Notes under the pieces: generated by a model
What the model saw: the letters and a program-made list of their open reading frames with translations, nothing else
What the model was told of the DNA's origin: nothing
The model's database searches: none
Part shown: piece by piece, positions 18,866 to 37,299 of the stretch
Numbering within the stretch: the stretch's first letter is position 1
Layout of the letters: each line of letters begins with the position of its first letter
NCBI GenBank assembly: GCA_022819745.1
Contig: JAJEGS010000008.1
Location: 1 to 64,000 of the forward strand
DNA length: 64,000 bases
Origin: Candidatus Latescibacterota bacterium
Lineage (GTDB): Bacteria; Latescibacterota; UBA2968; UBA8231
Direction of reading: 5' to 3'
Position numbers and translations under genes: made by a program

Positions 18866-18894
18866 TTGACACTCGCCTAGCCATTGCTTAAATC
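18866..18894 (+). promoter_or_regulatory. sigma-70-like promoter of the surface-protein operon
   Basis: TTGACA (18866-18871), a 17-base spacer and TAAATC (18889-18894) precede ATG 18902. Transcription would start about 7 bases after the -10 element, that is at or next to the ATG. There is no Shine-Dalgarno, so the first gene may be read from a leaderless transcript. Confidence 0.55.
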
Positions 18895-18901
18895 AAACGC
18901 C

Positions 18902-20506
18902 ATGTTTATCGCTACTACCCGCGCTCTGTGGCGCTCGCTTGCCCTCTTGGCCCTGTTTGGCTGCGCGCCAGACGACCCAATCGTAGCCCAAGTCGGCGAT
19001 GTGGGCCTCACCAAAGCCGCGTACCTGCGCTTTGTCGAGCGCTTGCCGCCCGGCTTGCAGAGCGAATCCGCACGCGACCACCTACAGTCCCTCGTCGATC
19101 AGGAACTGCTGCTGCAAGAGGCCCGCGCTAGAGGAATTGAGCAAAGCGACGAGGTCCGCTACCAGCTAAACGCCCTCGTGCGCAAGCGGCTTTCCCAGCG
19201 CTACCAAGCCGAAGTGCTCGCGCCCCAAGTCGAGGTAACGCCCGAGGAAGTCGAGCGCACCTTCGTCGATATGGGCTTTGATCGCGAGCGGCTCTTGGCG
19301 CGAATTCTGGTGCGGCAGCGACAAGATGTGGACCGCGTATTGCAGGCCCTGCACGAGGGCGAGCCTTTCGCCGAACTAGCGCAGCGCTTTGCGGCCAACG
19401 ACCTTTTCGCCCCACAGGGCGATGGAGTCGTCGGTTGGATTGGGCGCACCCAAGCGCAGCGCTTTTCCATTCCGCCGCAGACTTTCCTCTCCCTGCCGGT
19501 CGACCAAATCGCCGAGCCATTGCGGTTAGCGGGCGGCTGGCAAATCTATCGCTTTATCGAAGACCGGTCAGCCGACAAAGCTGACTACGCGGAAGAAGCT
19601 GCCCGCGCAGCGTACCGCGAAAAGTGGGAGAGTCGCCTGCAAATCGAAGTGGAAGCCCTGAGCCGCTCCTTGGGCCTCCAGTTATACCCCGAGGGTCTGC
19701 AAGCCTTGCTAGCCGAGCCGAATCTCGCCGACTCGCTCGCCGCGCTTCCCCTCTACCGCTTTGATGGCGGAGCGATTTCCTTGGGCGAATACCTCCACGA
19801 CCTGCGCTTGGCCGGCTTCCGGGCCGCGTTGCAAGACAGCGCCCAAGTTGCCTCGTTGGCTCGCACCATGTTCTTGCCGGCCTACCTGCTATCAGCGGCA
19901 GCCCAGCAGCGCGGATGGGATCAAGAGGCCGAATTCGCCGAGTGGCGCGAGCGCAAGCGCAGAGCCCTTGTCTTACAGCAGCTCACCAAGGTAGAAACGG
20001 CGACAAAGGCCGTACCCAGCGAGGAGCAAGTCGCCGCGTACTACGAGGCCAACAAGGCGCGCTTCCGCACGGCCGAATCCGTCCACATCAACCAGCTTCT
20101 CGCACCCACCCGCGAGCAGGCCCAACAGTTGCGCGAAGCCCTCGCAAACGGCAGCACCGTCGCCGAACTGTTGGCCCGACCGGGCGTCGAGACCCACGGC
20201 GACCCGCGCGACGACGGTGCGCTGCACCTGCGCAAGGTGGTGCGGTCGCGCTACCCTCAGCTTGTAGATGCGGCCTTTGCCGCAGAGATCGGCGAATGGG
20301 GTGGGCCAGTAGAGGTGCTAGACCAATTCGCCGTGTTCCGGGTACTCCACAAGGAGGGCGGCGACATCCAACCCTTCGCTCAAGCGCGAACGCGAGCGCG
20401 GGCCATCTTGGCAGCAAGGCGTCAGAACGAGCTCATGGACGCGCTCATCCAACGCCTGCGCACCGAGCGCGCAAGCCAAGTCGCCTTATTTGCCGAGCAC
20501 CTGTAA
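18902..20506 (+). CDS. PpiC/SurA-type peptidyl-prolyl isomerase lipoprotein
   Basis: From ATG 18902 the 534-aa product has a lipoprotein signal ending in LALFGC (C21). It then has a SurA-like N-terminal helical region (about 35-110), a parvulin domain (about 125-220, ARILVRQRQDVDRVLQALHEG, ending GWIG) and a second, more diverged parvulin-like region (about 375-490). Such lipoproteins sit in the periplasm on a membrane and chaperone outer-membrane or secreted proteins. Its position as the first gene of a 16-kb operon of very large exported proteins suggests it is their dedicated foldase. Its stop codon is part of the next gene's ribosome site. Confidence 0.85.
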   Translation: MFIATTRALWRSLALLALFGCAPDDPIVAQVGDVGLTKAAYLRFVERLPPGLQSESARDHLQSLVDQELLLQEARARGIEQSDEVRYQLNALVRKRLSQRYQAEVLAPQVEVTPEEVERTFVDMGFDRERLLARILVRQRQDVDRVLQALHEGEPFAELAQRFAANDLFAPQGDGVVGWIGRTQAQRFSIPPQTFLSLPVDQIAEPLRLAGGWQIYRFIEDRSADKADYAEEAARAAYREKWESRLQIEVEALSRSLGLQLYPEGLQALLAEPNLADSLAALPLYRFDGGAISLGEYLHDLRLAGFRAALQDSAQVASLARTMFLPAYLLSAAAQQRGWDQEAEFAEWRERKRRALVLQQLTKVETATKAVPSEEQVAAYYEANKARFRTAESVHINQLLAPTREQAQQLREALANGSTVAELLARPGVETHGDPRDDGALHLRKVVRSRYPQLVDAAFAAEIGEWGGPVEVLDQFAVFRVLHKEGGDIQPFAQARTRARAILAARRQNELMDALIQRLRTERASQVALFAEHL

Positions 20507-20518
20507 GGAGGTGCCATC

Positions 20519-23500
20519 GTGTTAAAAGTAAAATGGAGTGCCATCGCGTACTGCCTGTTGTGGGCATGGCTGCCAGCCAGCGCCCAGCAAGGGTACGACA
20601 TCGTTGACGACCGCATTGTCGTCTCCGGGCGCAGCCACTGGGAGTACTGGAAAAAACCCGAACACCTGACCACCATCGACAACTCGGGCGCGGTGCGTCC
20701 GCGGCACCTGCGCTCGATCTACAATGTCCTCTCCGATCCCAGCATCGCCCGTCCGGTCGTAATCACCAACAAAGACCCGCGCATTCTCAATGTGGATAGC
20801 ACCCTGAAGGTAGATGTGCTCGGCCGACCGGTCCAAGACACCCAGAAAAATTTTGTGTACGACTACTTGGTGCGAGCCGGAGCCAGCCGCGCAGGCTCCA
20901 ATATCGAGATGGCGGCCCATATCATCGACGGCGATCCGACCACCTTCTGGGAACCCGATCCAGACGACCCGATCGAGCAGTGGTGGGTCGAGGTCGATCT
21001 GGGCCGTGCTGTACCTGTGGAGGGGATCTTCGTGCACTTCGTCGAAGAGGGGCTGGGCGATCCTTTCTTCAAGTATCTCCTCCTGTTGGCACCCAATCAG
21101 ACGCTATCGCTTACCGACGACGGCAGGATTAGTTTCGAACTGTTCGTCCCCCACGAAGGGCCTAATACCCAGCAGCGCACCTTCTTCTTTCAAAGTGCCG
21201 CCGCAACTGGGGGAGCCACCCTTGCGACCCCGGTCAATCCCGGCCTCGTAGATCCTACCGGTGGGATTAGCGCTGTAAAGAAACTGCGACAAAACAGCGC
21301 CGATCCAGCTTGGACGGGCAAGCTCATCGAAACCATTCGCATTGTGATCACCGATACGCGCGGGGGGCGGGCCGAGCAAATCGACCAAACCGCCTGGGAG
21401 GCTCTGCCGGCGCATGAACGCGGCGACATCGTTTACTTCGTGCGCGACTTTGCCGGCCGCGAAGAGCCGGTGGAGGCCGAAACCTATGAGTCTTTGGAGG
21501 AAGAGCGCCGTGGGCGGCGGGAATTCTACCGCCGGGAGTTGCCGCGCTTGGCCGAGGTCGAAGCTTGGGGGTGGGGAGACAACATCAGCCTCGGCCTAGT
21601 CGAAGGGGGCGGCACTTTGGATCTGACCTCGGCTGGCAAAACGCCGGGACCGGCCTTCGACGGGGATATCGGCAGCAGTTATCAGCAACCCACCCGAGAC
21701 CCCCTCAACCCGGGTGCCAATGTGCTGACCATCGACATCGGCGGCACGGTGTGGCTGGACCAAGTCCGTTTCGCCGGCAGCAATATCCGCGGCTATCAGA
21801 TGCGGACGTCCACTGGGGAGCGCGATGCCCAAGGCAAGCTGCGCTGGCGTGCAATCACCCCGCCGGAGCGGGTAAAAAACGTCGATAACGGATTCTTTGG
21901 CTACCTCAACGACGTGCAGGATCCCGTGCGCAAGGTGCGCTTTCTCGATTTATTGACCTTTGCCAACTTTATCGGCGACGACCAAAACCGCAGAGACCGC
22001 TTCTGGTCTCGCTTCAACGAACTCATGCTGTTTGCCGAAGGTGTGCCCGCAGAAGTCGAGATAGAGTCCGCTCTGATTGAGCTGCCTGGGCTGGTGACCT
22101 TGGGCAGTATCCACTGGGAGGCCGACACGCCGCCGGGCACCAAGGTCGAGATTCGCACCCGCACTGGCGACCAACTCATCCAGCGGATCCGCTTCTTCGA
22201 CAGCAATGGCATCGAAAAGACCGCGGCCGAGCACAAGAAGCTGCTTGCCTTTCTCAAGGGGCCGATCGACACATCCTTTGCCATCGGCCCGGGCTGGAGT
22301 GCTTGGAGCCAGCAATACCAGCAGCCCGGCGACCCAGTAACGTCGCCCAGCCTGCGCAAGTTCATGCAAATTCAGGCTCGCCTGCTCAGCGAGGATCGCC
22401 AGGTCGCACCCGCGCTAGAGCGCATCTCCGTAGAGCTGCACACCCCGGTCGCCCTCGGACTGCGAGCTGAAGTCTGGCCGCCCGAGGCCCAAGTGGGTGT
22501 TTTGGATACCTTCGAAGTCTTCGTCCAACCCCAGTTCCTAGAGCAGCCCACCTCGGTCCGCAGCCTCGGGTTCGACGAGCTGCTTATCAGCACCGATCCA
22601 GGCCTCGACATGCAGCTCATTGATGTGGCAATCGGCACCGAAGAGGAGTTGGCGTCTGGCGCGCCGCAATCGCTCTTGGATCTAGCAAGCACCGACGGCC
22701 AAATGCTGCAAGGCGACTCGCTCCTAGTGCGCCTCCCGGAGGTCGCCCGCAGCGACACCGACGAACTGCCGCAGCTATATTTCCGCACAACGGCCGATGG
22801 CGAGGAAGTGCCCACCAGCATCGACGGTCAGCTTTTGACAGCAACCTCGCACGCCCTGCTCCCAGACGCGGTGCGCGGCGCGGTGCGCTACTTCCGCCTT
22901 GCCGGAGAAGAGCTAGTGGAAGTCGATCGCGCGGCCTACGACGAGCTACCGCCCGAGTCCCAAGGACCCGTGCGCTACTTCCGCAAGGTAGTAGGAGTGG
23001 GCAACCAGACGCTTTTCGACGAGGTCGGCGACACGCTTAGCGCGGCCCAGTACAACCGGCTAGGCCTTGCCAGAGGATGGGTCGTCGGTCATGGCCGACT
23101 CGTGCGCCTGCGCTTTGCGTCCAAGGTATTTCTCCACGGCACCAAGCTGAAGGTGGCCGTGCGCAACCAAGCAGCCAGCACACCCTATCAGCCCGCCGAC
23201 GCGGCCGACGCTACCGCGCTGCGACCATCGCAAACCCTGTCGATCGCCGCGCTCGGTGCCACGCAGATCGTCGCCGACATATCGGTCGCGCCCAACCCAT
23301 TCACGCCCAATGGCGACCTCGTAAACGACGTCGCCCAAATCGAATTCTCGCTGTTCAAAGTCTATGCCGAGCGGCCGGCCGCCGTCCGTATATGGGCACT
23401 CGACGGTCGGCCCATGCGCCTGCTAGAAGGCACGGCCCAAGGCGGGCACCAGCGCTTTACTTGGGACGGAAAAGACGACCAAGGTCGCGTCGTGCCACCC

Positions 23501-23590
23501 GGGCTCTACATCTGCCAGATCGACGTAGACACCGACGTCGAAGACAGCGCCGGACAACGGCAATCTCACCTTATCGCGGTAGCCTATTAG
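20519..23590 (+). CDS. secreted discoidin-like protein with T9SS-type C-terminal domain (family A, copy 1)
   Basis: The GTG at 20519 has AGGAGG eight bases upstream. The 1023-aa product has a signal peptide (cut after ASA, about residue 22). Two discoidin-like jelly-roll regions occur near 120-190 (HIIDGDPTTFWEP, VDLGRAVPVEGIFVHF) and 375-450 (LTIDIGGTVWLDQVRFAG). A family-specific module follows (FMQIQARLLSEDRQVAPALE). The C-terminus from about 927 (NPFTPNGDLVNDV ... WDGKDDQGRVVPPGLY ... AVAY) is the FlgD-like/gliding-motility type domain used for T9SS export. Two further copies of this family follow in the same operon. Ligand and function are unknown. Confidence 0.75.
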   Translation: MLKVKWSAIAYCLLWAWLPASAQQGYDIVDDRIVVSGRSHWEYWKKPEHLTTIDNSGAVRPRHLRSIYNVLSDPSIARPVVITNKDPRILNVDSTLKVDVLGRPVQDTQKNFVYDYLVRAGASRAGSNIEMAAHIIDGDPTTFWEPDPDDPIEQWWVEVDLGRAVPVEGIFVHFVEEGLGDPFFKYLLLLAPNQTLSLTDDGRISFELFVPHEGPNTQQRTFFFQSAAATGGATLATPVNPGLVDPTGGISAVKKLRQNSADPAWTGKLIETIRIVITDTRGGRAEQIDQTAWEALPAHERGDIVYFVRDFAGREEPVEAETYESLEEERRGRREFYRRELPRLAEVEAWGWGDNISLGLVEGGGTLDLTSAGKTPGPAFDGDIGSSYQQPTRDPLNPGANVLTIDIGGTVWLDQVRFAGSNIRGYQMRTSTGERDAQGKLRWRAITPPERVKNVDNGFFGYLNDVQDPVRKVRFLDLLTFANFIGDDQNRRDRFWSRFNELMLFAEGVPAEVEIESALIELPGLVTLGSIHWEADTPPGTKVEIRTRTGDQLIQRIRFFDSNGIEKTAAEHKKLLAFLKGPIDTSFAIGPGWSAWSQQYQQPGDPVTSPSLRKFMQIQARLLSEDRQVAPALERISVELHTPVALGLRAEVWPPEAQVGVLDTFEVFVQPQFLEQPTSVRSLGFDELLISTDPGLDMQLIDVAIGTEEELASGAPQSLLDLASTDGQMLQGDSLLVRLPEVARSDTDELPQLYFRTTADGEEVPTSIDGQLLTATSHALLPDAVRGAVRYFRLAGEELVEVDRAAYDELPPESQGPVRYFRKVVGVGNQTLFDEVGDTLSAAQYNRLGLARGWVVGHGRLVRLRFASKVFLHGTKLKVAVRNQAASTPYQPADAADATALRPSQTLSIAALGATQIVADISVAPNPFTPNGDLVNDVAQIEFSLFKVYAERPAAVRIWALDGRPMRLLEGTAQGGHQRFTWDGKDDQGRVVPPGLYICQIDVDTDVEDSAGQRQSHLIAVAY

Positions 23591-23607
23591 GGGCGAAAAG
23601 AGACGCC

Positions 23608-26274
23608 ATGCACACTGTTATCATTAGAATAAGCCTCGTTTTGCTACTCGTCGTCATCGCAGCCCAAGCGGCAGTCGGCCAAGTCGATTACAGTTCTCGC
23701 CTCGGGCTGCAACAGGGCGACGAGACCTCCTTTGCGCCTCAAGGGCCGGACGTCATGCTCGGCGTCCTCGACCCAGCAGTGCGCCGCTGGTATGTGCCAC
23801 AGGAACTCTACAAAGAGTACCACTGGCGCCAGTGGCAGTACACCAACTACGCCCGCAACCCCTACCAGCGCTACGTCGATATCAGCCTCGAAGGCGACTA
23901 CTTTTACGACCTGTACGGCAATTTCCTCACCCGTGGCTGGTTGATATTCAACAACTCCCAGAGCAAGCCCCAACAGTTCGGCAACTCGCTGCTCAAATCC
24001 AGCCGCTTCCAACAGTGGTTTTCCGACGTGGTCATCGCCTCAGACGCCAAGGGCCAATACTTCTATACCTTGACGACCAGCGCGCAGATGCGCTCGGTCA
24101 TCTCGCCGATGGTCTTTTCCAAGCCGCGCATGGACGGCGTGCAGTTCGACCTCGCCACCGACCGCTACGAAGGGACGCTCATCTACTCGCGCTTGAGCAA
24201 TCCAGGCGGCTCTACTACCGAAGACCAAGAAGTCCTCCGCACCAACAACACCACGCTGTTCGGCGGGCGCTTCGCCTACCAACTCAGCGACGCCTTGCAA
24301 TTGGGCCTGCACGCGGTCAACGCCCACCAGTCGAACACGCTTTCGGACCGCCTAGTGGGCAACCCGTTTTCCGGTGCCTTGACCGTGGCCCAAAACAAGA
24401 CCGTATCGCTGATTCAGATCGTCCTGCGCGACGATTCCCCGGGCGACGGAACGGGCGGAGCCGCCTTCTTCCAAGCCGGCTCGGACGTGCTAATCACCTA
24501 CGAGGACGGCACCGTCGATGCCGGCAAAGACATCCAATTTGAGCCGGTCATCGAAGGTGGCTTTGTCCAGCAGGGCTACATCGCCGCCAATGGCCCGGAG
24601 GAGATCCGCCTAAGCTACAACTTCGACAGCCCGGCCTTTGTCGATCGGGCCTCGTTTCCCAAAGAGGACATCGTCAAAGTCGAGTTCCGGCTCGTGCTGG
24701 GCAACGACTATCAGGTCTGGATGACCTCCGACCGCCAAGTCAACCGCGACGGGGAGGCCGTGCTACTGCTCGTGGCCCAAGCCGACGGCAACGTGCAAGA
24801 CATCACCAATTTGCAGACCGTCCGCTTCGAGTACGGCCTGCCCACGGCGACCCATATCTTCGGCGGCAACATCGAACTGCGCGACTACCAAGGCTTCGAC
24901 CTGTACGCCGAATACGACCTGAGCGTGAGCTACCGCAAGTACCCCAACGTCCTGCGCGACGAGCACCACACTGCATCCGGCATCGGCGGGAGCCGACGGG
25001 CACCGGCTTGGATGGTGAACGCATCCAAAAAGGCCGCTCCCTTCTTTGTCTTTGGCGAGGCGTACAGCATGGATCCGCTCTACAATACGCGGACTTTCGT
25101 CACCACGGGCACGGGCGAAATCGAATACGACAGCGAGCGCGAAGGCATCGTCGAGTTCGTCGAAGACAACGACGACCAAGACCGCTTCCCCGACACCGTG
25201 CGCTTCGACTGGCTCCAGGGCGATTCTCAAGTATTTCCGGGCTGGGACCAAAACAACGACTTCGTGCCCGACATCAACCAAAACGACAACTTCGTGCGCT
25301 CCAACGCCGTACCCGACTACGAAGAGCCTTTCCTCCGCTTCCATTCCGACCGCCCGGAATTTCTCTTCGGGATGGACATGAACAACAACTTCTGGATCGA
25401 CCAATACGAAAACGACGAAGAGCCAGATTACCCCTACCGCCGCGACCATCGCGGGTACAATGTGTACGGCGGAGCGGACCTGACGCCGCGACTTAAAGTG
25501 ATGGTAGGCGCACTGCGCGAGCAACTCATCTCGTCGAACCAGCAAAACAAGAGCACCTACGCCCTCGTGACGTACGACAACAACTCCCCGCGCTTTGGGC
25601 GCTTGCGCTTCTTTGAAATGAGCAAGTTGGTAGAGGACGACATTCCCAATCCCCTCTTGCAGTGGGCACCGGACAATACCCTGCGCGGCGGCGAGTTGAC
25701 CAAGGTCGAAGACCCCCTGTTAGCCCGCGATACATGGATCAACCAACTCTTTATAGGGCACAACTTGCAATCGGCTTCCTACAAAGTGCAGACCAAACTC
25801 AACTACGTGCGCTTCCGCCAGCTAATGAGCGAGGCCCGCCGGCAGGCCCTAGAGCTAGACGAGCAGGACTTCTTCTTTGGAATCATCAATAAGGCCAGCT
25901 ACCGCTATACCTTGGGCCAGCTCAGCTTGGAGCCGCGCTGGAAGAGCGAGTTCCGCAAGCAGTCGCGCAGTCTCTTTGCCCTAGAGCATTCCACCAGCCT
26001 CTACGAACTTTTTTCGGCCGTCGTCGAAACTCGCCTCCTGCGAGCCACCCAACTCCAAGCGGGCGTCGAGTACCTGATTTTTAACGACTTCAACGTCGAT
26101 GCCAACGACTTCAACTCCATTACCGGCGCGTTTCAGTTTACCAATCAGTCTCAGTACTTGGGTTACAGCCTCCACGCCCTAGCCGGGCTGCGCATCGAGC
26201 GCCAGGACTTTAAAGAGACCAAAGCGCGGTACACAAGTCAGACTTTTATAACGATCTACGCAGGATTGGAATAG
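23608..26274 (+). CDS. large envelope protein with acidic Asp/Asn-rich block (family B, copy 1)
   Basis: ATG 23608 begins a signal peptide (VLLLVVIAAQAAVGQ); the frame upstream lies within the preceding gene. The 888-aa product is rich in alternating polar/hydrophobic strands and has an N-terminal block DPAVRRWYVPQEL shared with the second B protein. Residues about 515-611 are extremely rich in Asp and Asn (DNDDQDRFPD, FPGWDQNNDFVPDINQND, MDMNNNFWIDQYEND), resembling calcium-binding thrombospondin type 3 repeats. The C-terminal third looks like beta strands and ends FITIYAGLE. An outer-membrane barrel or cell-surface protein is plausible, but I know no named family. Confidence 0.6.
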   Translation: MHTVIIRISLVLLLVVIAAQAAVGQVDYSSRLGLQQGDETSFAPQGPDVMLGVLDPAVRRWYVPQELYKEYHWRQWQYTNYARNPYQRYVDISLEGDYFYDLYGNFLTRGWLIFNNSQSKPQQFGNSLLKSSRFQQWFSDVVIASDAKGQYFYTLTTSAQMRSVISPMVFSKPRMDGVQFDLATDRYEGTLIYSRLSNPGGSTTEDQEVLRTNNTTLFGGRFAYQLSDALQLGLHAVNAHQSNTLSDRLVGNPFSGALTVAQNKTVSLIQIVLRDDSPGDGTGGAAFFQAGSDVLITYEDGTVDAGKDIQFEPVIEGGFVQQGYIAANGPEEIRLSYNFDSPAFVDRASFPKEDIVKVEFRLVLGNDYQVWMTSDRQVNRDGEAVLLLVAQADGNVQDITNLQTVRFEYGLPTATHIFGGNIELRDYQGFDLYAEYDLSVSYRKYPNVLRDEHHTASGIGGSRRAPAWMVNASKKAAPFFVFGEAYSMDPLYNTRTFVTTGTGEIEYDSEREGIVEFVEDNDDQDRFPDTVRFDWLQGDSQVFPGWDQNNDFVPDINQNDNFVRSNAVPDYEEPFLRFHSDRPEFLFGMDMNNNFWIDQYENDEEPDYPYRRDHRGYNVYGGADLTPRLKVMVGALREQLISSNQQNKSTYALVTYDNNSPRFGRLRFFEMSKLVEDDIPNPLLQWAPDNTLRGGELTKVEDPLLARDTWINQLFIGHNLQSASYKVQTKLNYVRFRQLMSEARRQALELDEQDFFFGIINKASYRYTLGQLSLEPRWKSEFRKQSRSLFALEHSTSLYELFSAVVETRLLRATQLQAGVEYLIFNDFNVDANDFNSITGAFQFTNQSQYLGYSLHALAGLRIERQDFKETKARYTSQTFITIYAGLE

Positions 26275-26277
26275 CGC

Positions 26278-28221
26278 GTGATTTGGCGCAACGACAACTT
26301 CGCCGTAGCCGTCATCGGCATTGCGCTCATGGCCCTTTGGCCGCGCCTGACCTATTTGGATGAGGTCGAGCATAGCCCCTTCTTGGAGGTGCCGACGGCG
26401 GCGAGTTGGCCCTACGTCGAGGCCGCTAGGGGAGAGGGGGACACAGCGGTTGCCAGCCCCTTGTACCCGCTCTTTTTGCGCGGCTTCGTCGCCGTTGGCC
26501 TGGCACCTCGCTACGTCCAAGTCCTGCTAGGCGTGGCCAGTTGTGCGCTATTGGCCCTAATCGGTCGCGCGATCTGGGGACCGGCCACGGGACTCATCGC
26601 CGCTTTGTGCGCAGCCCTATACGGGCCAGCCATCTATTTCACCGGCTCCTTGCTGCCCCCAGTCCTCGCGGTATTTCTGGTGCTCTCGCTGCTGGCGGCA
26701 CTGTTGTGGGCCGACCAGCAGAGCGATGGGAACGCGTTTTTAGGCGTCGGGATTTTGCTAGCGCTTTGCTTGCTGGCCGCGCCGCAAGTCGTGCTTTTCG
26801 CGCCGGCCGTGCTGTGGTGGCTGTGGGCAGGAGGAAAGCAGCGGGTGGGTTGGGCCTGTGTGCTGGGGACGGCTTGTGCTCTCGTGCTGTGGTATTTTTT
26901 AGGGGCAGCTATAAATGCCGGCGGCTCGCCCGACCTCCTCGTGCGCGGTGGGGAGCATTTGCCCGCGCTGGATATGTACCACGCGCGCGGCGATTCAGCC
27001 GTCCTAGCGGTCCTGTTGTGGAAATGGGGTCTCGCGTTTCCCTTCGGCTTGGTCTTGCCGCTCGCGCTGCTAGGCGTGGGTCTTGCCTTGGCGGCGCGGG
27101 AGCGCGGCGTTTCGCTCGCCCTGCTGTTCGTCGCAACCGTCGTAATGGGAACCGCGCTCTACGGTGCCCATGCCGAGACGCGCATGGTGCTGGTACCCGT
27201 GCTCTTGCTCTTTGCGGTGAGCGGGGTCGGGCAACTGGTGCAGTTGTCTTGGGCGTGGAGGGGGGGCGCTGTGGTGGGATTGGTGCTAGTCGCGGGATTG
27301 GTCAACGCCAGTACACCAGCCATGGACCGCGCGGCGCAAGCCTCGCAGCAGCGCTATTTAGGCCACGCCTATGTGGAGTTGGGCATGACGGCTACGGCTG
27401 TCGCCGCATACGAACAGGCCTTAGCCGCAGGCAGTTCCGATAAGGACGTGTATTGGGCCTTGGCGGTGCTCTACGACGCCAGCGGCAAACCCGAGCGAGC
27501 ACTCGGCATCAGCCAGGCATTCGTCGCGCGCTGGCCTGCAGACGTGCGCGGACAGCGGGCACTCGGCGACCGCTACATGGCGGTGGGCCGTCCCCAACAA
27601 GCGCGCACAATCTATCAACAACTCGTCGCAAGTAGCGGACAGGAAGCCCTACTCGGACGCTTGGGGGATGCGCAACTGACGAGCGGTGCGCTCGACGAGG
27701 CCGTGCAATCCTACGAGCGGCTGCTAACGTTGAGCCCGGATAGCAGCCGGGTGCGCTACCAATTGGCGCGCGCCTACGCTGCTAGCGGGCGGATGGAAGA
27801 CTCCGAACGATCCTATCGCCAGCTCCTAGACAGCCCGACCTACGGCGTGCAGGCGCGAGTAGAAGCGGCCGCACTCTTGCGCCACAACGGCCAGCTATCA
27901 GCCGCCGAGGGGCTGCTCTCGCAAGTCCTAGCGCTAGCGCCAGATCATCGCGAGGGGCTGCTCCGGCTCGGCGAAGTCCTCTTAGAGCAAAGACGGCCCG
28001 GCGAGGCGCTGACTCATTGGCTGCATCTCGCCGAACTAGAGCCGCACAACTGGCGGCTCCAAGGCCACTTGAGCAAGGCGTACAGTCAATTGGGGCGGGG
28101 CGCAGAAGCGCGGGACGCAGAAACGCGCTATCAGCGGGCAAGGCAGCGCGCCCAACTCCAGCAGCGAATCGAAGCGGAGCAGAAGGCATTGGCAAAAAAA
28201 ATTCTCGGGGAAAACTTATGA
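26278..28221 (+). CDS. multi-pass membrane protein with C-terminal TPR repeats
   Basis: The GTG at 26278 is three bases after the preceding stop. Of 647 aa, the first about 330 contain some nine to ten hydrophobic segments with a short periplasmic loop after the first one, like the membrane core of ArnT/PMT-type (GT39/GT83) glycosyltransferases. I see no firm catalytic D-E pair. Residues about 340-620 are TPR repeats (YLGHAYVELGMTATAVAAYE, LAVLYDASGKPERAL, LARAYAASGRMEDSERSY, RLGEVLLEQRRPGEALTHW). It may glycosylate or scaffold the A and B proteins (inference). The stop overlaps the next start (ATGA). Confidence 0.7.
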   Translation: MIWRNDNFAVAVIGIALMALWPRLTYLDEVEHSPFLEVPTAASWPYVEAARGEGDTAVASPLYPLFLRGFVAVGLAPRYVQVLLGVASCALLALIGRAIWGPATGLIAALCAALYGPAIYFTGSLLPPVLAVFLVLSLLAALLWADQQSDGNAFLGVGILLALCLLAAPQVVLFAPAVLWWLWAGGKQRVGWACVLGTACALVLWYFLGAAINAGGSPDLLVRGGEHLPALDMYHARGDSAVLAVLLWKWGLAFPFGLVLPLALLGVGLALAARERGVSLALLFVATVVMGTALYGAHAETRMVLVPVLLLFAVSGVGQLVQLSWAWRGGAVVGLVLVAGLVNASTPAMDRAAQASQQRYLGHAYVELGMTATAVAAYEQALAAGSSDKDVYWALAVLYDASGKPERALGISQAFVARWPADVRGQRALGDRYMAVGRPQQARTIYQQLVASSGQEALLGRLGDAQLTSGALDEAVQSYERLLTLSPDSSRVRYQLARAYAASGRMEDSERSYRQLLDSPTYGVQARVEAAALLRHNGQLSAAEGLLSQVLALAPDHREGLLRLGEVLLEQRRPGEALTHWLHLAELEPHNWRLQGHLSKAYSQLGRGAEARDAETRYQRARQRAQLQQRIEAEQKALAKKILGENL

Positions 28222-30284
28222 AGCGCTTGCTTCTCATAGGTGCATTAGTGCTTTTGCACGGCAGCGATTTGCAGGGACGTCAAGTATTGCTCGTCGGCCA
28301 AGACGGCCAGATTAGCTGGGAGGGGGACGTAGAAGCCGGGATTGCGGTGCAAACCATTGAGCCGGAGTACCGCTCCACGTTGGATCCCAACATCACCGAA
28401 ATCGGCGTCGCGCCGGTCAATCTCGTCGATTTTTCCAGCGCGGACTTTCCCAGCAGCATCCTGCCCCGCCGCGTACAGGAGGGCCAAAACCTCGCCGCTG
28501 AAATCGCCGAGCGCGGCGGCAGCATCCGCGCTCCGACCGTTTTTGACCTCGCCGAGTCCCAGTTGCAAAACATCCTCGATCAGATCGTGTCGCCCGATCC
28601 CAGTGGCGGGGCCTTCGAGCGCAAGGGACGGGACGTGTTGGGCACCTTGCTCGTGCTCGATTTGGGTGCGCGCTTTGGCGTCAACCAAATTCGCTTCTTC
28701 CCGCGCAATACGGTCTTTCCGTCGCCATCGACGCCCTTTCAAGAGGACTTTCTCAAAAACTTCGAACTCCAAGTCAACGACGGCCAAGTGCTGACCGAGG
28801 CCGGTAACCCCATCTGGGAGACCTTTACGGCACGTACCAACAACACCGATCCGGTCGCCACCATCGAGATCGACCCGCCGCGCTTTTTGCGCTTCATCCG
28901 CCTGCGCGCCACCTCATCCATCCCCTTTGAGGTGGAGAAATTCCAGGTTTTCGGCGAGGGCTTCTTCCCCACCGTGCAGTACGTTTCGCCGCTCATCGAC
29001 ATGGGCACGCCAGCCAATTGGGGACGCTTGCGCTGGCTGGAGGAGACCGTTGGGCAGGCGAACGCCGTGCAGATGAACATCCGCACCCGCAGCGGCAACG
29101 ACACGTCGCCCTTCGCCTATACGCGCAAGCGAGTGGGGCGTCAAGACGCCGAAGAAATCGCGTTCTCCGTCGATAATCCCGACCAGCCGCTCCTGCGCGA
29201 CGAGTACCTCGACCTGCCGGCCAAGGGAGGCCCCGCCGATGTGTGGGAACGCGGCCCCGTGCGCGACGACTTGGCCAATTGGAGTCCGTGGACCTCGCCC
29301 TACGATCCGGTCGCCGGCACCAGCAGCGAGGGCGCATTGGTCCTCTCGCCCGGGCCGCGCCGCTACTTCCAATTCCGAGTTGACTTTCAGTCCGATGATC
29401 TAGAATCGGCAAAAATCCTGCGGCAGTTTTCCTTTGATTTCACAACGCCGCCATTGGCCGATGTCCTCGTCGGCGAAATTTTTCCGCGCGAGGTGCCCGC
29501 AGCCGCCGACATTCCCTTTGTCTATGCCGTGCGCGCCGAGATGGAGAGCGGAGATTTGCAGGGATTCGACGGGTTCGAGCTGGTCACCGGCAGCCGCATA
29601 GACCGCATTGAGCGCATTGAAATCATCGACGCGCAGGGCGAGTTCCTCCTAGCGCACGATTTTGCGGTGCAAGACGCTGTCGCCGACGAGGGCGACGTGG
29701 CCATCACCGCGCTCTCGGAGCGCAACTTTGCGGTGCGCTTTCCGCGAGTAGCCGCGCACAACACCGTGTTGAAGATCCACTTTGTCAGCCGTATCCTCTC
29801 GTATAGCACGGCCTTTGAGGGCCGGGGCTTGCTGCTGGAAGAAGATGCCTTTCAAAGCGTCCAAGCCGGCGACGCTACCGCGCTAGACGAAGGCGACATC
29901 TCGTTCAAATCGGACACTACCGTCTTGAGCCCGGCTGTCAACAGCGGCAGCCTAGTGGGCAACTTTGACCTCGCCGCGGCCGTTATCACGCCCAATGGCG
30001 ATGGAATCAACGATGTCTTGGATATGGAGTGCGAGGTCCTTGCAGTCGATGGCGGGCAGATTGTGGTCAATATATACGACCTAGGAGGACGCTGGGTGCG
30101 TCGCCTCTTCGACATCGAGGGTCAAAGCGGCGTTTACAGTTCGGAAGACCTGCCCCAACTTCGGTGGGACGGGACCGACGATCAGGGTGAGAGCGTGGCC
30201 CCTGGCCTCTATCTAGTCCAACTCAACGTCAAGGGCGATGCGCGCGCTAGCGCCAGCACGCGCACCGTCGGCGTAGCGTACTAG
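28218..30284 (+). CDS. secreted discoidin-like protein with T9SS-type C-terminal domain (family A, copy 2)
   Basis: The ATG at 28218 overlaps the upstream TGA and starts a signal peptide (MKRLLLIGALVLLHGSDLQG). The 688-aa product has a discoidin-like region near 145-240 (LVLDLGARFGVNQIRFFP, FLRFIRLRATSS). The family-A module SPGPRRYFQFRVDFQSDDLE lies near 378-397. The C-terminal domain starts at about 590 (ITPNGDGINDV) with Y-D-L-G-G-R-W-V-R and WDGTDDQGESVAPGLY, ending GVAY. It lacks the first 250 or so residues of copy 1. It is probably exported and anchored by the same route. Confidence 0.75.
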   Translation: MKRLLLIGALVLLHGSDLQGRQVLLVGQDGQISWEGDVEAGIAVQTIEPEYRSTLDPNITEIGVAPVNLVDFSSADFPSSILPRRVQEGQNLAAEIAERGGSIRAPTVFDLAESQLQNILDQIVSPDPSGGAFERKGRDVLGTLLVLDLGARFGVNQIRFFPRNTVFPSPSTPFQEDFLKNFELQVNDGQVLTEAGNPIWETFTARTNNTDPVATIEIDPPRFLRFIRLRATSSIPFEVEKFQVFGEGFFPTVQYVSPLIDMGTPANWGRLRWLEETVGQANAVQMNIRTRSGNDTSPFAYTRKRVGRQDAEEIAFSVDNPDQPLLRDEYLDLPAKGGPADVWERGPVRDDLANWSPWTSPYDPVAGTSSEGALVLSPGPRRYFQFRVDFQSDDLESAKILRQFSFDFTTPPLADVLVGEIFPREVPAAADIPFVYAVRAEMESGDLQGFDGFELVTGSRIDRIERIEIIDAQGEFLLAHDFAVQDAVADEGDVAITALSERNFAVRFPRVAAHNTVLKIHFVSRILSYSTAFEGRGLLLEEDAFQSVQAGDATALDEGDISFKSDTTVLSPAVNSGSLVGNFDLAAAVITPNGDGINDVLDMECEVLAVDGGQIVVNIYDLGGRWVRRLFDIEGQSGVYSSEDLPQLRWDGTDDQGESVAPGLYLVQLNVKGDARASASTRTVGVAY

Positions 30285-30363
30285 GATTTATGGGGTTTGT
30301 GTGATGTATGTGATTCCACCCCACCACCAACCGCGTTGGAGGGTTAAAAAAGGAATGAGAGTC

Positions 30364-32385
30364 ATGCTAGGGCGAAATTTATTGTGGAGTTTAAGTATCG
30401 CGGCTTGGTGTACCAGCGCGGCGTGGGGGCGGGCCGAGTTTCACATCGGCGGGCCGACAGGTGTTTCTTGGCAGGGGCTGATCACCGATGAGCAGACTGA
30501 ATACTCCATCGTCGATGACCAAGGCATAGCCTTGGGTACGCTGCCCATTGCCATCGGCGTAGAGGAAGCGGGCGTCGATACCATGATCGCCTACGACGAC
30601 AACGCTATCCGGCCAATATGGGTCGATCCGTCGGTCAACCTCGCGCTAGACGTGAACTTGACCCCGCGCGGCGGCAACCTCTACACCAGCGTCTCCACCG
30701 GCTATACCCGCGAGGCCGCTAAAGAAGTGCAGGTGATGATCGACGGCGACCCGGAAACGGCGACCTTGCGCCAAGTCGATATCTCGCCGCGTTTGGCCGG
30801 TCTCAATATCGGCTACGTGAAAAACACAGTCGTCAACTTAGGGGCCGAGATGCCGGTCAACCGCATCCGCTTCTATCCGCGCCCGGGCTTTGAGGAAAAC
30901 TACTTGGCTTGGTACGAAATCGGCGTAGCCGACAACACTGCGCCTTTTATGGCCTCGCCCCAAGAGCGTGCACCGGGCAAGCGCTGGTACCATGACATCA
31001 GCCGCTCGCTCACCTCGACCAACGACCCGGAACTAGACATCCTAGAGCGCAACGTTGAAAACCTCGACCAAGTCGTGGATTTGCGCTTTCCCACGCGCGA
31101 CTTGCGCTGGGTCGCCATTCGCCCGATCAACCCCGAGCGCACTTGGGAGATCGCCGAAATGGAGGTGTACGGCGAAGGTTTCGTCACCAAGACCTCCTAT
31201 CGCACCGGTGTGCTGGACTTCGGTCGCCCGGTGGCTTGGAGCAAAATCCGCTGGCGGGGCGAGGTGCCCGAGGGTACTCGCCTCGTGTTGCGCACGCGCA
31301 CCGGCTCCACGCCACAGCCCAATTTATTTTGGAAAATCGGCAGCACTGGCAGCTTTGAGCGGGTGTCCAAAGACGATTACACCACGACCTACCAAGTAGG
31401 TCGGTTCAGCCATATCCAAGCGACGTACGATGTAGAAAACTGGAGCTTCTGGTCAACACCCTATGACTTTGCGGCCGGGCTACGCGACCCAGAGGTAACG
31501 AGCTGGGAGGACGGAACGCCCCTTCTCTCGCCCGGACCCAGCCAGTACTTGCAGCTAGAAGTGGTCATGTTTTCCGACGGGGACAAAGCACCGCGCATCG
31601 ACGAGCTGTCTCTGCTGTTTGCCGAAGATCCAGCGGCCCAAAGCGTGATCGCCGAGATCTGGCCGGTTGAGACCGAAAACTTCGAGCCGCAGACCTTCAC
31701 CTATGTAGTGCGGCCCATGCTTGAAGACGGCGACCGGGGCTTCGACCGGCTGGAAATCTTCACCCAAGTCCCGGCCGCAGCCGTCCATTCGGTCGCGGTC
31801 GATGGCCGGGAAATCATCGACGACTTCCCACCCCAATTAGAGGAAGACCGGATCGTCATTAGCTTTGAGCCGTTTGTTGCGCCGCGCGACAACGAGCGCC
31901 GCATCGAGGTCGTCTTCGACGCCAAAGTGCTGCGCTTTGGCGCGGAATTCACCGGTTGGGTGTACGACAGCGCCGAGCCCGAGCTCAAGCAGCAAGTCCG
32001 GCCCGGCAACGCAACCTTCCGCTTTGCCGGCGACGCCCTATCCGTGCGCACCCCCGTCGGCGGCGAACTGGTGCGAAAAGTCACCGCGCATCCCGCGACG
32101 TTGACGCCCAATGGCGACGGGATCAATGATCAGACCATGATCTCGTACGATCTGCGCAACATCGGCGTGCCGCGCCAGATCGCTCTGCGGATTTTCGACC
32201 TGTCCGGCCGACTGGTGCGCGAGGTGATCTCCACGCCCGCCGTCAGCGGCAGCTTTGCGGCGGTTTGGGATGGCCGTCGCACCGAGGGAGATTTAGTCGC
32301 CCCAGGCGTGTATCTCTACCAAGTCGATCTAACCACCGACAAGGGCCTCTCTGCAGCCGCAGGGACCGTAGCTGTGGCCTACTGA
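30364..32385 (+). CDS. secreted discoidin-like protein with T9SS-type C-terminal domain (family A, copy 3)
   Basis: ATG 30364 is favoured because AGGA lies nine bases upstream; ATG 30355 is too close to it. The 673-aa product has a signal peptide (NLLWSLSIAAWCTSAAWG). A discoidin-like region near 120-270 carries MIDGDPETATL, VVNLGAEMPVNRIRFYP and LRWVAIRPIN. The family module SPGPSQYLQLEVVMFSDGDK and an IFDLSGRLVREV strand follow. The tail starts at about 579 (LTPNGDGINDQ) and ends AVAY. The order of modules is the same as in copy 2, which it most resembles. The 79-base gap before it is the longest in the operon and may hold an internal promoter, but I could not identify one. Confidence 0.75.
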   Translation: MLGRNLLWSLSIAAWCTSAAWGRAEFHIGGPTGVSWQGLITDEQTEYSIVDDQGIALGTLPIAIGVEEAGVDTMIAYDDNAIRPIWVDPSVNLALDVNLTPRGGNLYTSVSTGYTREAAKEVQVMIDGDPETATLRQVDISPRLAGLNIGYVKNTVVNLGAEMPVNRIRFYPRPGFEENYLAWYEIGVADNTAPFMASPQERAPGKRWYHDISRSLTSTNDPELDILERNVENLDQVVDLRFPTRDLRWVAIRPINPERTWEIAEMEVYGEGFVTKTSYRTGVLDFGRPVAWSKIRWRGEVPEGTRLVLRTRTGSTPQPNLFWKIGSTGSFERVSKDDYTTTYQVGRFSHIQATYDVENWSFWSTPYDFAAGLRDPEVTSWEDGTPLLSPGPSQYLQLEVVMFSDGDKAPRIDELSLLFAEDPAAQSVIAEIWPVETENFEPQTFTYVVRPMLEDGDRGFDRLEIFTQVPAAAVHSVAVDGREIIDDFPPQLEEDRIVISFEPFVAPRDNERRIEVVFDAKVLRFGAEFTGWVYDSAEPELKQQVRPGNATFRFAGDALSVRTPVGGELVRKVTAHPATLTPNGDGINDQTMISYDLRNIGVPRQIALRIFDLSGRLVREVISTPAVSGSFAAVWDGRRTEGDLVAPGVYLYQVDLTTDKGLSAAAGTVAVAY

Positions 32386-32393
32386 GCGAGCAA

Positions 32394-35006
32394 ATGGCAG
32401 AAACTGCGAAACGCATCTGCAAGGCCGCCCTATTTTTGTGGGCTATTAGCGGCGGCTCGGCCGCAGCCCAAATCGGGCTGCAATCGCTGGCCTCCCCAGG
32501 CGCGGAAGCCCTCGACCCGGCGGTGCGCCGCTGGTACGTGCCCCAAGAGTTGGTCGCCGAACACCACTGGCGGCAGTGGAACACCACCAACTACGCGCGC
32601 GCGCCCTATCAGCGGTATGTCAGTACCAACATCGAGGGAGATTACTTCTACGACGCCTTTGGCAACTTCCTCAATCAGGGCTGGCTGATATACAACGTAT
32701 CTCAATCTAATCCCGAGGAATTCGGCACCGTACTGTTTGAAGCCCAGCGCTTCCGCAATTGGTTTTCCGAGGTCGCCGTGGCCTCCGAGCAAAAAGGGCA
32801 ATACGCATACGCGCTGACCATCAGCAGCGATCTGCGCACCACTCTGACGCCCATGGTGCTGTCCAAACCGCGCCTCGATGGCGTGCAGTTCGACTTCGCC
32901 ATGGACAAGTACCGGGGCACGTTCCTCTACGCGCAGGCCAGTGCCCCGCGCGGCATCACCAATCAAGAGCTGCGCCGCACCAATTCCACTACCTTGATCG
33001 GGGGACGCTTTGAAGTGCAAATCGGCGATTTCGTCGAGCTCGGCGTCCACAGCGCCAACGCCCACCAAGCCAATTCGCTTTCGGAAGAAGCCCTGTTGAG
33101 CAATTGGGTAACCGGATCGCTGACCCAAGGCCAGAACCGGACCATCTCCCGCATCGAAATCGCCCTGCGGGACGACTCGCCAGACGACGGCGTGGGCGGT
33201 GCGGCGTATTTTCCGGCTGGCTCGGACATCTTCATCACCTATCGGGATGGCCGCGTGGATTCGGGCCGCGAGATCCGCTTTGAACCCGTAGTAGAGGGCG
33301 GTGCGCCCCGCCCGGGCTATATCGAGGCCAACGGCAACGATGAAATCCGCCTGCTCTACGACTTCGACAGCGCCAGCTTCATCAACCGAGCCGCGGCCGA
33401 CAAAACCGAAATCGTCAAAGTGGAATTCCGGCTAGTGGTAGCCAACGACTATCAGGTCTGGATGACCTCGGACCAGCAGACCAGCGGTGGCGAGCCCGTG
33501 TTCCTGCTGATGACGCAAGCGCCGAGCAACATCAAGGACTTGTCCAATTTGCGCGTCATCAGCTTTGAGGCCGGGTTGCCGACGGCGACCCACATTCTCG
33601 GCGGTACGGTGACGGCCACCGACGTGATGGGCTTCGACCTGTACGGCGAGTACGATCTCAACTGGAACTACCGCAAATATCCCAACATCCTCGTCGAAGA
33701 ACACCAGACTTCGGCCGGCATTGTCGGCGCGCGCAGCGCACCAGCCTATATGCTCAATCTGTCGCGTCAGTGGTCCCGCTTCTTTATCTACAGCGAAGCC
33801 TATCAGATGCACCCGCGCTACAACACCCAGACTTTCGTCACCCGCGACGACGGCAGCATCGACTACCAAAACGATCGCAGCCTCATGGATCTGGTGGAAG
33901 ACAACGACGATCAAGACCGAGTGCCAGACAGCTTCCGCGCCGACTGGGCCTTCCCCGACCGCCAAGTCTTTCCGGGCTGGGATCAAAACAGCGACTTCGT
34001 GCCCGACATCAACCAAAACGACAGCCGAGTGCGCACCAACTCGATCCCGGACTACGAAGAGCCTTTCCTGCGCTTTGCGGTAGATCGGCCCGAATTTCTC
34101 TTCGGCGTTGACATGAACAACAACTTCTGGACCGACCAATATGAAAACGACCAAGAGCCAGACTATCCCTACAAGCGCGACCACCAAGGCTACAACGCGT
34201 ACGTCGGCACCTACTTGGCTCCGCAGTTAAAGATCATCGCCGGCCTCCTGCGCGAGGACCGCATCTCTTCCAACCAGAAAAACCACAGCGCGTACGCACT
34301 CTTGCGGTTCGACCGGAGCTGGGCGCGCTACGGCAATGTGCGCCTTTTCGGCATGACCAAGCGCGTGGAAGACGACATTGCCGACCCGCTCTTGCAATGG
34401 GCACCCGACAACACGCTGCGCCTCGGCACGCTGACCGAGATCGACGATCCGCTGCTGGCCCGCGACACTTGGATCAATCAGCTCTTCCTCGGCCACAATG
34501 TGCGCGCCTTTTCGCTGAATCTACAAAACAAGGTCAACTGGGTGGTCTTTCACCAACTCATGGACGCCGAGCGCCGACAACGCTGGGGCTTGGCCGAGAC
34601 GGATTTCTTCTTCGGGATGATCAACAAGGCCCACTACCGCCATGCGCTCGGTCCCCTCTATCTAGAGCCGCGCTGGAAGAGCGAGTTTATCAAGCAGAGC
34701 CGCGATTTGTTCACGGACGAGCGCCGGACGACCCTAGTCGAACTCTTCTCGCTGTTGGTGGGCACCGATGTCCTAGAGATCACCAAGCTACAAGCGGGTC
34801 TAGAGTATCTGATCTTCGACGATTTCAACACGGATGCCAACGATTTTACGGCGCTGACTTGGGGCGTTCAGTTCAAAAACGAATCGGCCTATCAAGGCTA
34901 CAAGCTCCAGACCGTGCTCGGGCTGGTGCTAGAGCGCAAGAATTTCAAGGACGCCCCATCGCGCACCGAGACCCAATCTTTCATCGCCATTTACGCGGGG
35001 ATTTAA
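32394..35006 (+). CDS. large envelope protein with acidic Asp/Asn-rich block (family B, copy 2)
   Basis: From ATG 32394 the 870-aa product has a signal peptide (ALFLWAISGGSAAAQ) and is a close paralogue of the protein at 23608. They share DPAVRRWYVPQEL, W-R-Q-W, EGDYFYDxFGNFL, PMVLSKPRLDGVQFD, NDYQVWMTSDxQ, GLPTATHI and the acidic block (about 497-593: DNDDQDRVPD, FPGWDQNSDFVPDINQND, DMNNNFWTDQYENDQEPDYP). It ends SFIAIYAGI. It is the last gene of the operon, and its final 17 codons are duplicated at 36150-36200. Function is unknown; a surface or barrel role is inferred. Confidence 0.6.
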   Translation: MAETAKRICKAALFLWAISGGSAAAQIGLQSLASPGAEALDPAVRRWYVPQELVAEHHWRQWNTTNYARAPYQRYVSTNIEGDYFYDAFGNFLNQGWLIYNVSQSNPEEFGTVLFEAQRFRNWFSEVAVASEQKGQYAYALTISSDLRTTLTPMVLSKPRLDGVQFDFAMDKYRGTFLYAQASAPRGITNQELRRTNSTTLIGGRFEVQIGDFVELGVHSANAHQANSLSEEALLSNWVTGSLTQGQNRTISRIEIALRDDSPDDGVGGAAYFPAGSDIFITYRDGRVDSGREIRFEPVVEGGAPRPGYIEANGNDEIRLLYDFDSASFINRAAADKTEIVKVEFRLVVANDYQVWMTSDQQTSGGEPVFLLMTQAPSNIKDLSNLRVISFEAGLPTATHILGGTVTATDVMGFDLYGEYDLNWNYRKYPNILVEEHQTSAGIVGARSAPAYMLNLSRQWSRFFIYSEAYQMHPRYNTQTFVTRDDGSIDYQNDRSLMDLVEDNDDQDRVPDSFRADWAFPDRQVFPGWDQNSDFVPDINQNDSRVRTNSIPDYEEPFLRFAVDRPEFLFGVDMNNNFWTDQYENDQEPDYPYKRDHQGYNAYVGTYLAPQLKIIAGLLREDRISSNQKNHSAYALLRFDRSWARYGNVRLFGMTKRVEDDIADPLLQWAPDNTLRLGTLTEIDDPLLARDTWINQLFLGHNVRAFSLNLQNKVNWVVFHQLMDAERRQRWGLAETDFFFGMINKAHYRHALGPLYLEPRWKSEFIKQSRDLFTDERRTTLVELFSLLVGTDVLEITKLQAGLEYLIFDDFNTDANDFTALTWGVQFKNESAYQGYKLQTVLGLVLERKNFKDAPSRTETQSFIAIYAGI

Positions 35007-35128: not shown

Positions 35129-36022
35129 ATGAAAAAGTTCCTCACCACTGCCTTAGCCTCGCTGGGCCTTGTGGTTGCCGCCCAAGCCCATGACCCGCCG
35201 GGCGGGCTGTTGGTTGCCGTGAATTTCCCCGATGCCAACGTGCCCGTCATTGACGGCAACGCCGGCGAGTGGGCTCCCGTACCCCTCGACCAGTACGGGA
35301 TTTTCAGCGAGACCTTGTATTCGATCCACGGCTTTGCCGGCGAAAACGTCGAGCAAGGCGGGCTGGACGCCAGTTCGATGCAGATCCGCCACATCGTCGG
35401 CTGGAACGACGCGACCAACAACGTGTACATCACCAGCCGCGTCTTTGACGACATTCACATCACTCAGCGTCAAGACCCGGGCAAATTCTTCTGGGATGAC
35501 AGCGTCGAATACGAGCTCAACGCTGCCCACCAAGCCCGCGACGACCTGAATCCCGGCGACGATGCGACCAGCTTCAGCTACAAGTTCGCCTTCCCGGTCT
35601 ATCAGGAGACCTTTGAGTGGTATCGCCCGATCCTCAACCTGCCGTGGATGACCAGCGGCTCGCAGTGGATCGAGATCGCTCACAGCTTCACGGGCGACGA
35701 GTTCGGCGAGAGCACGTACGACTACGAGCTTCGCATCCTGCCGATCGAGCGGATGCCGCGCTCGGATGAGGCCACCGAGGACCAAGTTGAGGTCCACGAC
35801 CTGACCGAGGGTGGGGTCATTCACATCACCCTCACGGTCAACGACGTCGATGGCGGCGAAGGCGATGGCGACAACCGCATCGGCATGTGGAGCACCAATC
35901 CCACTTCGTGCTGCCACGCTGCCCAAGACTTGCTCTTGACCCCGATGGATCCCAATATCGACTGGGGCGCGGCGACATCCGTTGACGCCAGTAGCTGGGG
36001 CCGGATCAAGTCCCAGTTCTAG
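35129..36022 (+). CDS. small secreted CBM9-like/DOMON-type protein, copy 1
   Basis: ATG 35129 has GGAGGT nine bases upstream and starts a signal peptide (MKKFLTTALASLGLVVAAQA). The 297-aa product begins DANVPVIDGNAGEW, the usual opening of CBM9-like sugar-binding sandwiches (V-x-I-D-G-x-x-x-E-W), and later has FFWDDSVEYELNA and YKFAFPVYQETFEW. Its own promoter and the strong ribosome site suggest abundant expression. I infer a periplasmic or surface ligand-binding protein; the ligand is unknown. A tandem paralogue follows. Confidence 0.7.
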   Translation: MKKFLTTALASLGLVVAAQAHDPPGGLLVAVNFPDANVPVIDGNAGEWAPVPLDQYGIFSETLYSIHGFAGENVEQGGLDASSMQIRHIVGWNDATNNVYITSRVFDDIHITQRQDPGKFFWDDSVEYELNAAHQARDDLNPGDDATSFSYKFAFPVYQETFEWYRPILNLPWMTSGSQWIEIAHSFTGDEFGESTYDYELRILPIERMPRSDEATEDQVEVHDLTEGGVIHITLTVNDVDGGEGDGDNRIGMWSTNPTSCCHAAQDLLLTPMDPNIDWGAATSVDASSWGRIKSQF

Positions 36023-36051
36023 GCAATTTCATCTCAATCGCAGTACCATTT

Positions 36052-37278: not shown

Positions 37279-37299
37279 AAATGCTACTTAGGAGATTGT

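Follow-up and report, generated by a model that had tools for sequence, protein, structure and literature searches.

The SusC/SusD systems of polysaccharide utilization loci in Bacteroidota consist of a large outer-membrane barrel and a surface partner, and exist as dozens of co-diverging loci. For the type IX secretion system (T9SS), two reports describe a second arrangement of this kind: in Flavobacterium johnsoniae, genes for cargo with a type B C-terminal domain (CTD) are often linked to those for PorP/SprF-like barrels, and a dependence on the cognate barrel was demonstrated for two substrates (PMC12618676); PorP and SprF have been found bound to type B cargo, and PorE has a tetratricopeptide repeat (TPR) domain (PMC9143113). 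Here we describe an operon in 64,000 nucleotides of DNA from a Candidatus Latescibacterota bacterium (contig JAJEGS010000008.1; this whole stretch is called the window), in which seven co-directional genes on the + strand encode a PpiC-type foldase, A1, B1, a TPR protein, A2, A3 and B2. The seven genes and their order had been proposed in an earlier note on this DNA and were confirmed, as was the claim that A and B are each a paralogous family.

The operon represents a single copy of an envelope module that is repeated many times, and this iteration, not the single operon, is the larger finding. We tentatively interpret the cassette as a capture-and-channel module, similar to SusCD in logic but built without SusC, SusD or TonB; this is quite possible, though we stop short of calling it probable. 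A 2015 paper on Latescibacteria attributes the import of B12 and iron to TonB and also mentions non-specific porins (PMC4454575), and the words outer membrane, secretion and TonB do not occur in the main text of a 2023 paper on sponge Latescibacterota (PMC12993501). Within a literature coverage that excludes most subscription journals, we found no publication on T9SS, discoidin or outer-membrane paralog expansion in Latescibacterota, and none on DUF6785.

An iterated cassette

A search with B2 of the complete 6.27-Mb chromosome OX638377.1, from a close relative, gave 47 B genes once split matches had been merged. They form 31 clusters when separated at gaps of more than 10 kb and 30 at gaps of more than 20 kb, some of the B ends used in these distance and cluster counts being approximations from split matches. 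The B2 protein of the window is 93-97% identical over its full length to eight records, including the finished chromosomes OX638377.1 and OY282352.1, which are titled Latescibacteria/Latescibacterota or, probably by mislabelling, Gemmatimonadetes/Gemmatimonadota. B relatives with 54-97% identity are also present in L009, L015, L016, L026 and L027, whose titles (Gemmatimonadetes/Gemmatimonadota or Woeseia) probably reflect misassigned bins.

Open reading frames (ORFs) were called in 31 regions of 20 kb around the B clusters and compared with the genes of the window. Both B and A are present in all 31 regions, PpiC in 25, TPR-matching proteins in 19 (many of these matches being weak), CBM9-like proteins in 18 and DUF6785 in 14; since the regions were selected by B, these counts are descriptive and not tests. 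Because the ORF picker keeps the longest ORFs, true genes can be lost, as were both B genes of L115, which were recovered by direct frame search. Coding sequence of the A and B families in the 31 regions amounts to 325 kb, which is about 5% of the chromosome. The CBM9-like genes downstream of the operon and the approximately 30 cassette copies in one related genome go beyond the earlier note. Its suggestion of a conserved PpiC-A-B-TPR neighbourhood is partly borne out. Five of the 31 clusters (L054, L066, L078, L079 and L076, the orthologue of the window operon) show exactly this order, and the other clusters have the same families in other orders. L074 differs from the exact order by one extra, interrupting ORF. 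Outside the family of the window, two genomes belonging to another one, G008 (L110) and G007 (L111), show A-B-TPR-A again.

Foldases are strongly tied to the B clusters. A Rotamase_2 search of the whole of OX638377.1 gave 55 domain matches in 32 places, 26 of which lie within 10 kb of a B gene, compared with an expected mean of 4.1 in 5000 circular shifts. In the PpiC protein of the window, two segments match rotamase families and a lipobox-like LFGC can be recognised by eye; it is probably a lipoprotein, as the earlier note had described it.

B nearly always adjoins A, and A is often away from B. Among the matches listed, 45 of the 47 B genes have an A gene within 6 kb, so that the two families do not occur only apart; the remaining two, both in L069, have a weak A relative (56 bits) in their region. 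The A family outnumbers B, with 127 merged A places among the matches listed (matches less than 400 bases apart were merged, and neighbouring genes may be fused by this), 77 of them within 10 kb of B, a zone that covers 12.3% of the chromosome. Some A genes also stand in arrays that lack B. In one such region (L105, OX638377.1 1378000-1397999), six tandem A genes were found, in which long (778-801 aa) and short (669-680 aa) members alternate, and no B gene was called there.

Predicted folds and co-divergence of A and B

B1 has no Pfam match, B2 has only an unrelated one below the cut-off, neither has an NCBIfam match over the cut-off, and no sequence relative of B was found in PDB at E-values up to 10. 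By sequence, B therefore matches no characterised family over the cut-off; a match to such a family was what the earlier note had said would count against its proposal. The AlphaFold2 (AF2) model of B2 (mean pLDDT 74.8) is a barrel with 22 strands of at least nine residues outside an inserted domain, or 24 with two shorter ones, by our own count. Two large insertions, a confident beta domain (residues approximately 245-390) and an Asp-rich loop (501-596, low confidence), probably lie outside the cell, because tight and long turns alternate in our reading of the secondary-structure list. The Asp-rich loop is the most conserved of the B segments compared, with a median paralogue identity of 0.63 versus 0.32 for residues 597-870. 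Structural matches of B are a mixture of large barrels (SlpA, MtrB, FimD, XusA, LptD and SprA), none of which shows homology, and VIA-align also gave a mixture of barrels with no clearly best family. In Foldseek, the S-layer-associated SlpA barrel of Deinococcus takes the first three rows (best 1.5e-8), with a TM-score of 0.24 at best; the likeness of SlpA and MtrB to B is weak (TM by query 0.24-0.26) and is accompanied by no sequence relation. From the model, B appears to be a large, undescribed family of outer-membrane barrels with approximately 22-24 strands.

The plug of an usher is periplasmic. The turn lengths place the B insertion outside the cell by our reading, which argues against an usher-like role, in which B itself would be the export pore for the Ig-like A proteins and PpiC would be the chaperone of A. 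Neither B1 nor B2 matches the Usher family of Pfam, the tails of A are of T9SS type, and T9SS is present in relatives; we regard an usher-like role as very improbable.

For A1, the earlier note had proposed a discoidin domain and a T9SS-type tail. The AF2 model of A2, which is confident (mean pLDDT 89.4), has a galactose-binding-like part; the sequence matches are weak, those of A1 staying below the cut-off and the discoidin matches of A2 and A3 reaching only 0.044. Single domains of the A2 model match CBM32 (TM by target 0.72), SUN2 and neuropilin in Foldseek, and the whole-chain rows are poor (the first is C5a peptidase, TM approximately 0.1). Part of A2 is thus predicted to resemble the galactose-binding domains of CBM32 and SUN. 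The tails of the A proteins match CHU_C/FlgD_ig, the cut-off of PF13585 being passed by A3 only, and the tail of the A profile matches FlgD (4.5e-5) and C5a peptidase better than PorU (0.015, weak). TPNGD is found near the end of 67 of 89 A proteins (86 from OX638377.1 and the three of the window); this count and the identities of A given below exclude weak family matches (<40 or <50 bits). The T9SS core genes, a check proposed in the earlier note, are present by homology in close relatives: SprA is over the cut-off in three of three genomes, and PorU (630 bits) was found in two of two, with PorV (233-238 bits) adjacent. On the basis of these tails and core genes, the A proteins are probably cargo secreted by T9SS.

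Across the paralogous clusters, identities between B proteins correlate with those between A proteins (Mantel r 0.89, 31 loci), between CBM9-like proteins (0.85, 14 loci) and between PpiC proteins (0.64, 24 loci), and these values were reached by 0 to 2 of 2000 permutations. When 82 A proteins were divided into slices of 110 residues, the tail gave r 0.47 against B and the next three slices gave 0.85, 0.82 and 0.69. Median paralogue identity is 0.40 for B, 0.28 for A and 0.36 for the A tail, and the weaker signal of the tail is partly due to its higher conservation.

These slices bear on a reading in which B is a shuttle or anchor equivalent to PorP/SprF: it would receive the neighbouring A proteins, with their type B tails, at the SprA translocon and retain them on the surface with no passage of nutrients, and the A proteins would be adhesins whose expansion diversifies adhesion. 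As in PorP/SprF systems, CHU_C-like-tailed proteins are encoded here beside an outer-membrane barrel and a TPR-containing partner; A3 passes the CHU_C cut-off, A lies close to 45 of the 47 B genes among the matches listed, and the gene linkage, reliance on cognate barrels (PMC12618676) and binding of type B cargo (PMC9143113) reported for PorP/SprF-like barrels all speak for such a role. PF11751 (PorP_SprF) matches neither B1 nor B2 and was found in neither of two genomes in a search whose control was silent, so that another barrel could fill this role. However, recognition in F. johnsoniae lies in the CTD, whereas here the tail tracks B least (0.47 versus 0.69-0.85, partly through tail conservation) and the body of A co-varies more. 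Similarly tailed proteins abound in B-less genomes, A genes occur far from B, and B greatly exceeds the 14-stranded PorP in size, being approximately 870-890 aa long with two large insertions and a predicted 22-24 strands. A shuttle or anchor is thus possible, but we lean against it.

The higher conservation of B (0.40) compared with A (0.28), together with SlpA in the first three Foldseek rows, would also fit a surface coat or adhesin repertoire, in which A paralogues on B scaffolds form a variable layer contacting a host or particles, and diversity of recognition rather than feeding drives the expansion. Several of the related records may be metagenome-assembled genomes from sponges, judging from their labels. 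The TM-scores of SlpA are low, DUF6785 recurs beside the cassette and ABC sugar systems stand beside some copies, and we consider a coat unlikely.

In the B tree, B1 and B2 of the window belong to a clade of 12 (support 100/100) with L054, L058, L066, L074, L078, L079 and the orthologous L076, among which L054, L079 and L076 have two B genes each. A second group also has two B genes per cluster (L059, L061, L065, L068, L070, L073 and L077), and its two seven-member subtrees share most splits, the placement of L061 and L065 being different; this is as expected if a tandem B pair was copied within the cassette. The tree indicates that the cassettes multiplied by block duplication from an ancestor with tandem B genes, and co-inheritance of A and B is well supported by the sequences.

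Of the 64 genomes of the phylum that were searched, 39 have B: all 25 of its own family and 14 of families f5-f9; none was found in families f2, f3, f4 and f10. The B counts per genome are floors, since scoring was limited to approximately 14 candidates in each. Among the 25 B-less genomes are six (G019, G022, G026, G036, G041 and G042) in which the listed matches to the A profile cover only the tail (positions approximately 570-690); in the B-positive G008, which belongs to another family, the A match (4.4e-140) spans profile positions 72-690. When a profile of eight divergent B proteins was used, relatives were also found in two proteins named Ignavibacteriales.

Genes of the operon and its surroundings

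The features of the operon and its neighbours are listed in Table 1. The intergenic gaps of 12, 17, 3, -4, 79 and 8 bases given in the earlier note are correct, provided that A3 starts at its ATG; with the in-frame GTG as an alternative start, the gap before A3 is 16. A single promoter for all seven genes was not established, because the consensus scan lists no site at 18866, although TTGACA is present there, and the promoter-like sites in the region number 6 versus 4.3 +/- 1.8 by chance.

Table 1. Positions in the window of the operon genes and adjacent features.
Feature	Position	Strand	Evidence
DUF6785/DUF6784 polytopic membrane protein, upstream neighbour	16788..18809	+	PF20581 1.6e-115, PF20580 7.2e-29; 8 hydrophobic segments
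PpiC-type peptidyl-prolyl isomerase, probable lipoprotein	18902..20506 (ORF from 18884)	+	PF13145 79.6 bits, PF00639 29.9 bits
A1 surface protein, discoidin-like + C-terminal FlgD_ig/CHU_C-like domain	20519..23590	+	PF00754 8.9e-6, PF13860 2.1e-4, both below cut-off; family membership
B1 large predicted outer-membrane barrel, unnamed family	23608..26274	+	no Pfam/NCBIfam match; family of 47 in OX638377.1
GT-C (PMT_2-like) membrane domain + TPR repeats, candidate catalytic motif degenerate	26278..28221	+	TPR_19 2.1e-24; PMT_2 0.0027, below cut-off; 12-sequence alignment
A2 surface protein, galactose-binding/Ig-like domains + FlgD_ig/T9SS-type tail	28218..30284	+	AF2 model; Foldseek
A3 surface protein, T9SS type B-like tail	30364..32385 (or from GTG 30301)	+	PF13585 34.3 bits, cut-off 27
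B2 large predicted outer-membrane barrel	32394..35006	+	60% identical to B1; AF2 model
Asp-rich loop of B2 (residues 501-596), putative Ca2+-binding	33894..34181	+	conservation; 24 D+E vs 9 K+R; low model confidence
CBM9-like secreted protein, paralogue 1 of 2	35129..36022	+	no own Pfam match; 3/6 scanned relatives match CBM9_1, all below cut-off
CBM9-like secreted protein, paralogue 2	36307..37218	+	phmmer family; no own Pfam match

TMTC-type O-mannosyltransferases combine GT-C and TPR parts. Gene four resembles them in having a multi-pass GT-C domain followed by TPRs, which refines its earlier description as a membrane-TPR protein to a GT-C (PMT-like) fusion; unlike them, it is bacterial and has lost the candidate motif in the window and the membrane domain in L054. 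The PMT_2 score of the window copy (18.4 bits) is below the cut-off of 26.1, which is passed by two of five relatives scanned (L058 and L110). An acidic VDAxTY-type motif in the first loop, which we take to be the catalytic site, is kept in eight of 12 aligned sequences and lost in the window, L076 and L079, and in L054 the whole membrane domain is gone and the start is lipoprotein-like. Within the clade of the window, the copies without the motif are exactly those with two B genes; L061 and L070, from the other group with two B genes, keep it. An active O-mannosyltransferase in the window operon was rejected because the acidic motif is replaced. We also rejected the assignment of all TPR matches to the TPR protein of the operon, as most are low-scoring and probably generic TPRs, and eight proteins of OX638377.1 with more than 130 bits retain the membrane part. 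What is being kept in gene four is the TPR portion; its persistence in a clade where the glycosyltransferase has lost its motif, or is missing as a domain, suggests that it serves as a structural scaffold.

The two CBM9-like genes look like separate units. The first may have its own promoter (TTGACA-18-TACATT at 35010). It is followed by a strong terminator-like hairpin at 36050-36087 (16 pairs, then TTTTT), after which TTGACA-18-TATATT is found at 36204, such sites being not above chance in number. Further along in the same direction, genes for a PhyH dioxygenase, a solute-binding protein and two ATP-binding cassette (ABC) permeases occupy 37264-41312 of the window. Neighbouring proteins of at least 200 aa in the related clusters were scanned (114 of 117, three at region edges being omitted), and FG-GAP/UnbV_ASPIC proteins are a recurring companion in the L049-L079 neighbourhoods (14 of 114). 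A group of 12 proteins (approximately 240-450 aa) also recurs in the clusters, for example at L049:17029-17838, L052:17784-18503 and L056:6112-6894, and the four members scanned have no Pfam match over the cut-off.

Possible function and significance

The overall interpretation of the earlier note is supported; A proteins may, as it proposed, be displayed on or anchored to B proteins. In the capture-and-channel reading, T9SS would deliver A to the cell surface, where the body of A would dock on its own B barrel. The complex may then bind one particular ligand. A glycan or glycoconjugate is the most likely candidate, sugar binding being favoured by the CBM32-like part of A. The ligand would pass through the plug-less B towards the inner-membrane transporters (DUF6785, ABC) that often stand beside the cassette, and the TPR protein would scaffold assembly, its glycosyltransferase part being dispensable. 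Like SusC/SusD, A and B are a barrel and a surface partner that have multiplied, with some loci beside transporters or enzymes. Unlike SusC, B gives no match to a TonB plug, no relation between the two was detected by sequence, the partner is a T9SS-tailed discoidin/Ig protein, and 25 of the 31 A/B clusters carry PpiC. Among the matches listed in OX638377.1, none of 28 TonB plug matches lies within 10 kb of B, and SusD_RagB (PF07980) was found in neither of two genomes with a positive Bacteroides control, other SusD families not being searched.

Several points weigh against this reading. Co-divergence and shared trees are expected from block duplication without any contact, so that the data establish co-inheritance and do not prove contact; contact, ligand and transport are inferred rather than directly evidenced, and B without a TonB plug may be only an anchor. 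Residues 19-95 and parts of 504-573 of B2 are modelled with low confidence, which makes the pore and plug uncertain. For 50 of the 127 merged A places among the matches listed, the nearest B is more than 10 kb away. In G012, whose B relatives are divergent (2.0e-42), the listed matches to the A profile are likewise mostly in the tail; the profile therefore misses divergent bodies, the test of A/B co-occurrence is one-sided, and the bodies missing in B-less genomes may partly reflect divergence. The neighbours are mixed (14 FG-GAP/UnbV_ASPIC, 5 PhyH, 4 sugar-type solute-binding proteins and 2 sulfatases among the 114 scanned), and no glycoside hydrolase is among the listed 25 of 93 neighbour families. 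We place capture and channelling slightly ahead of pure anchoring, because B does not match the PorP/SprF family of Pfam and co-variation with B is lowest in the tail of A; neither is proved.

A broader claim would be that this is a third logic of selective outer-membrane uptake in Gram-negative bacteria. Lectin-like proteins delivered by T9SS would bind to giant barrels that lack a plug and have a calcium-bound gate on the extracellular side, and neither TonB nor SusD would take part. The system would be present in some thirty copies, most of them with a foldase, and would extend through much of Latescibacterota, B also having relatives in Ignavibacteriales. In this full form we hold the claim to be doubtful.

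The cassette suggests an unrecognised way to build a surface and perhaps to capture food. It is a two-family system that occupies approximately 5% of one chromosome and includes a barrel without a name in Pfam or NCBIfam, and its some 30 paralogous clusters are a ready data set on the co-evolution of cargo, barrel and foldase. If A and B do form surface complexes, this uncultured phylum would have its own T9SS-based counterpart of the SusCD paradigm.

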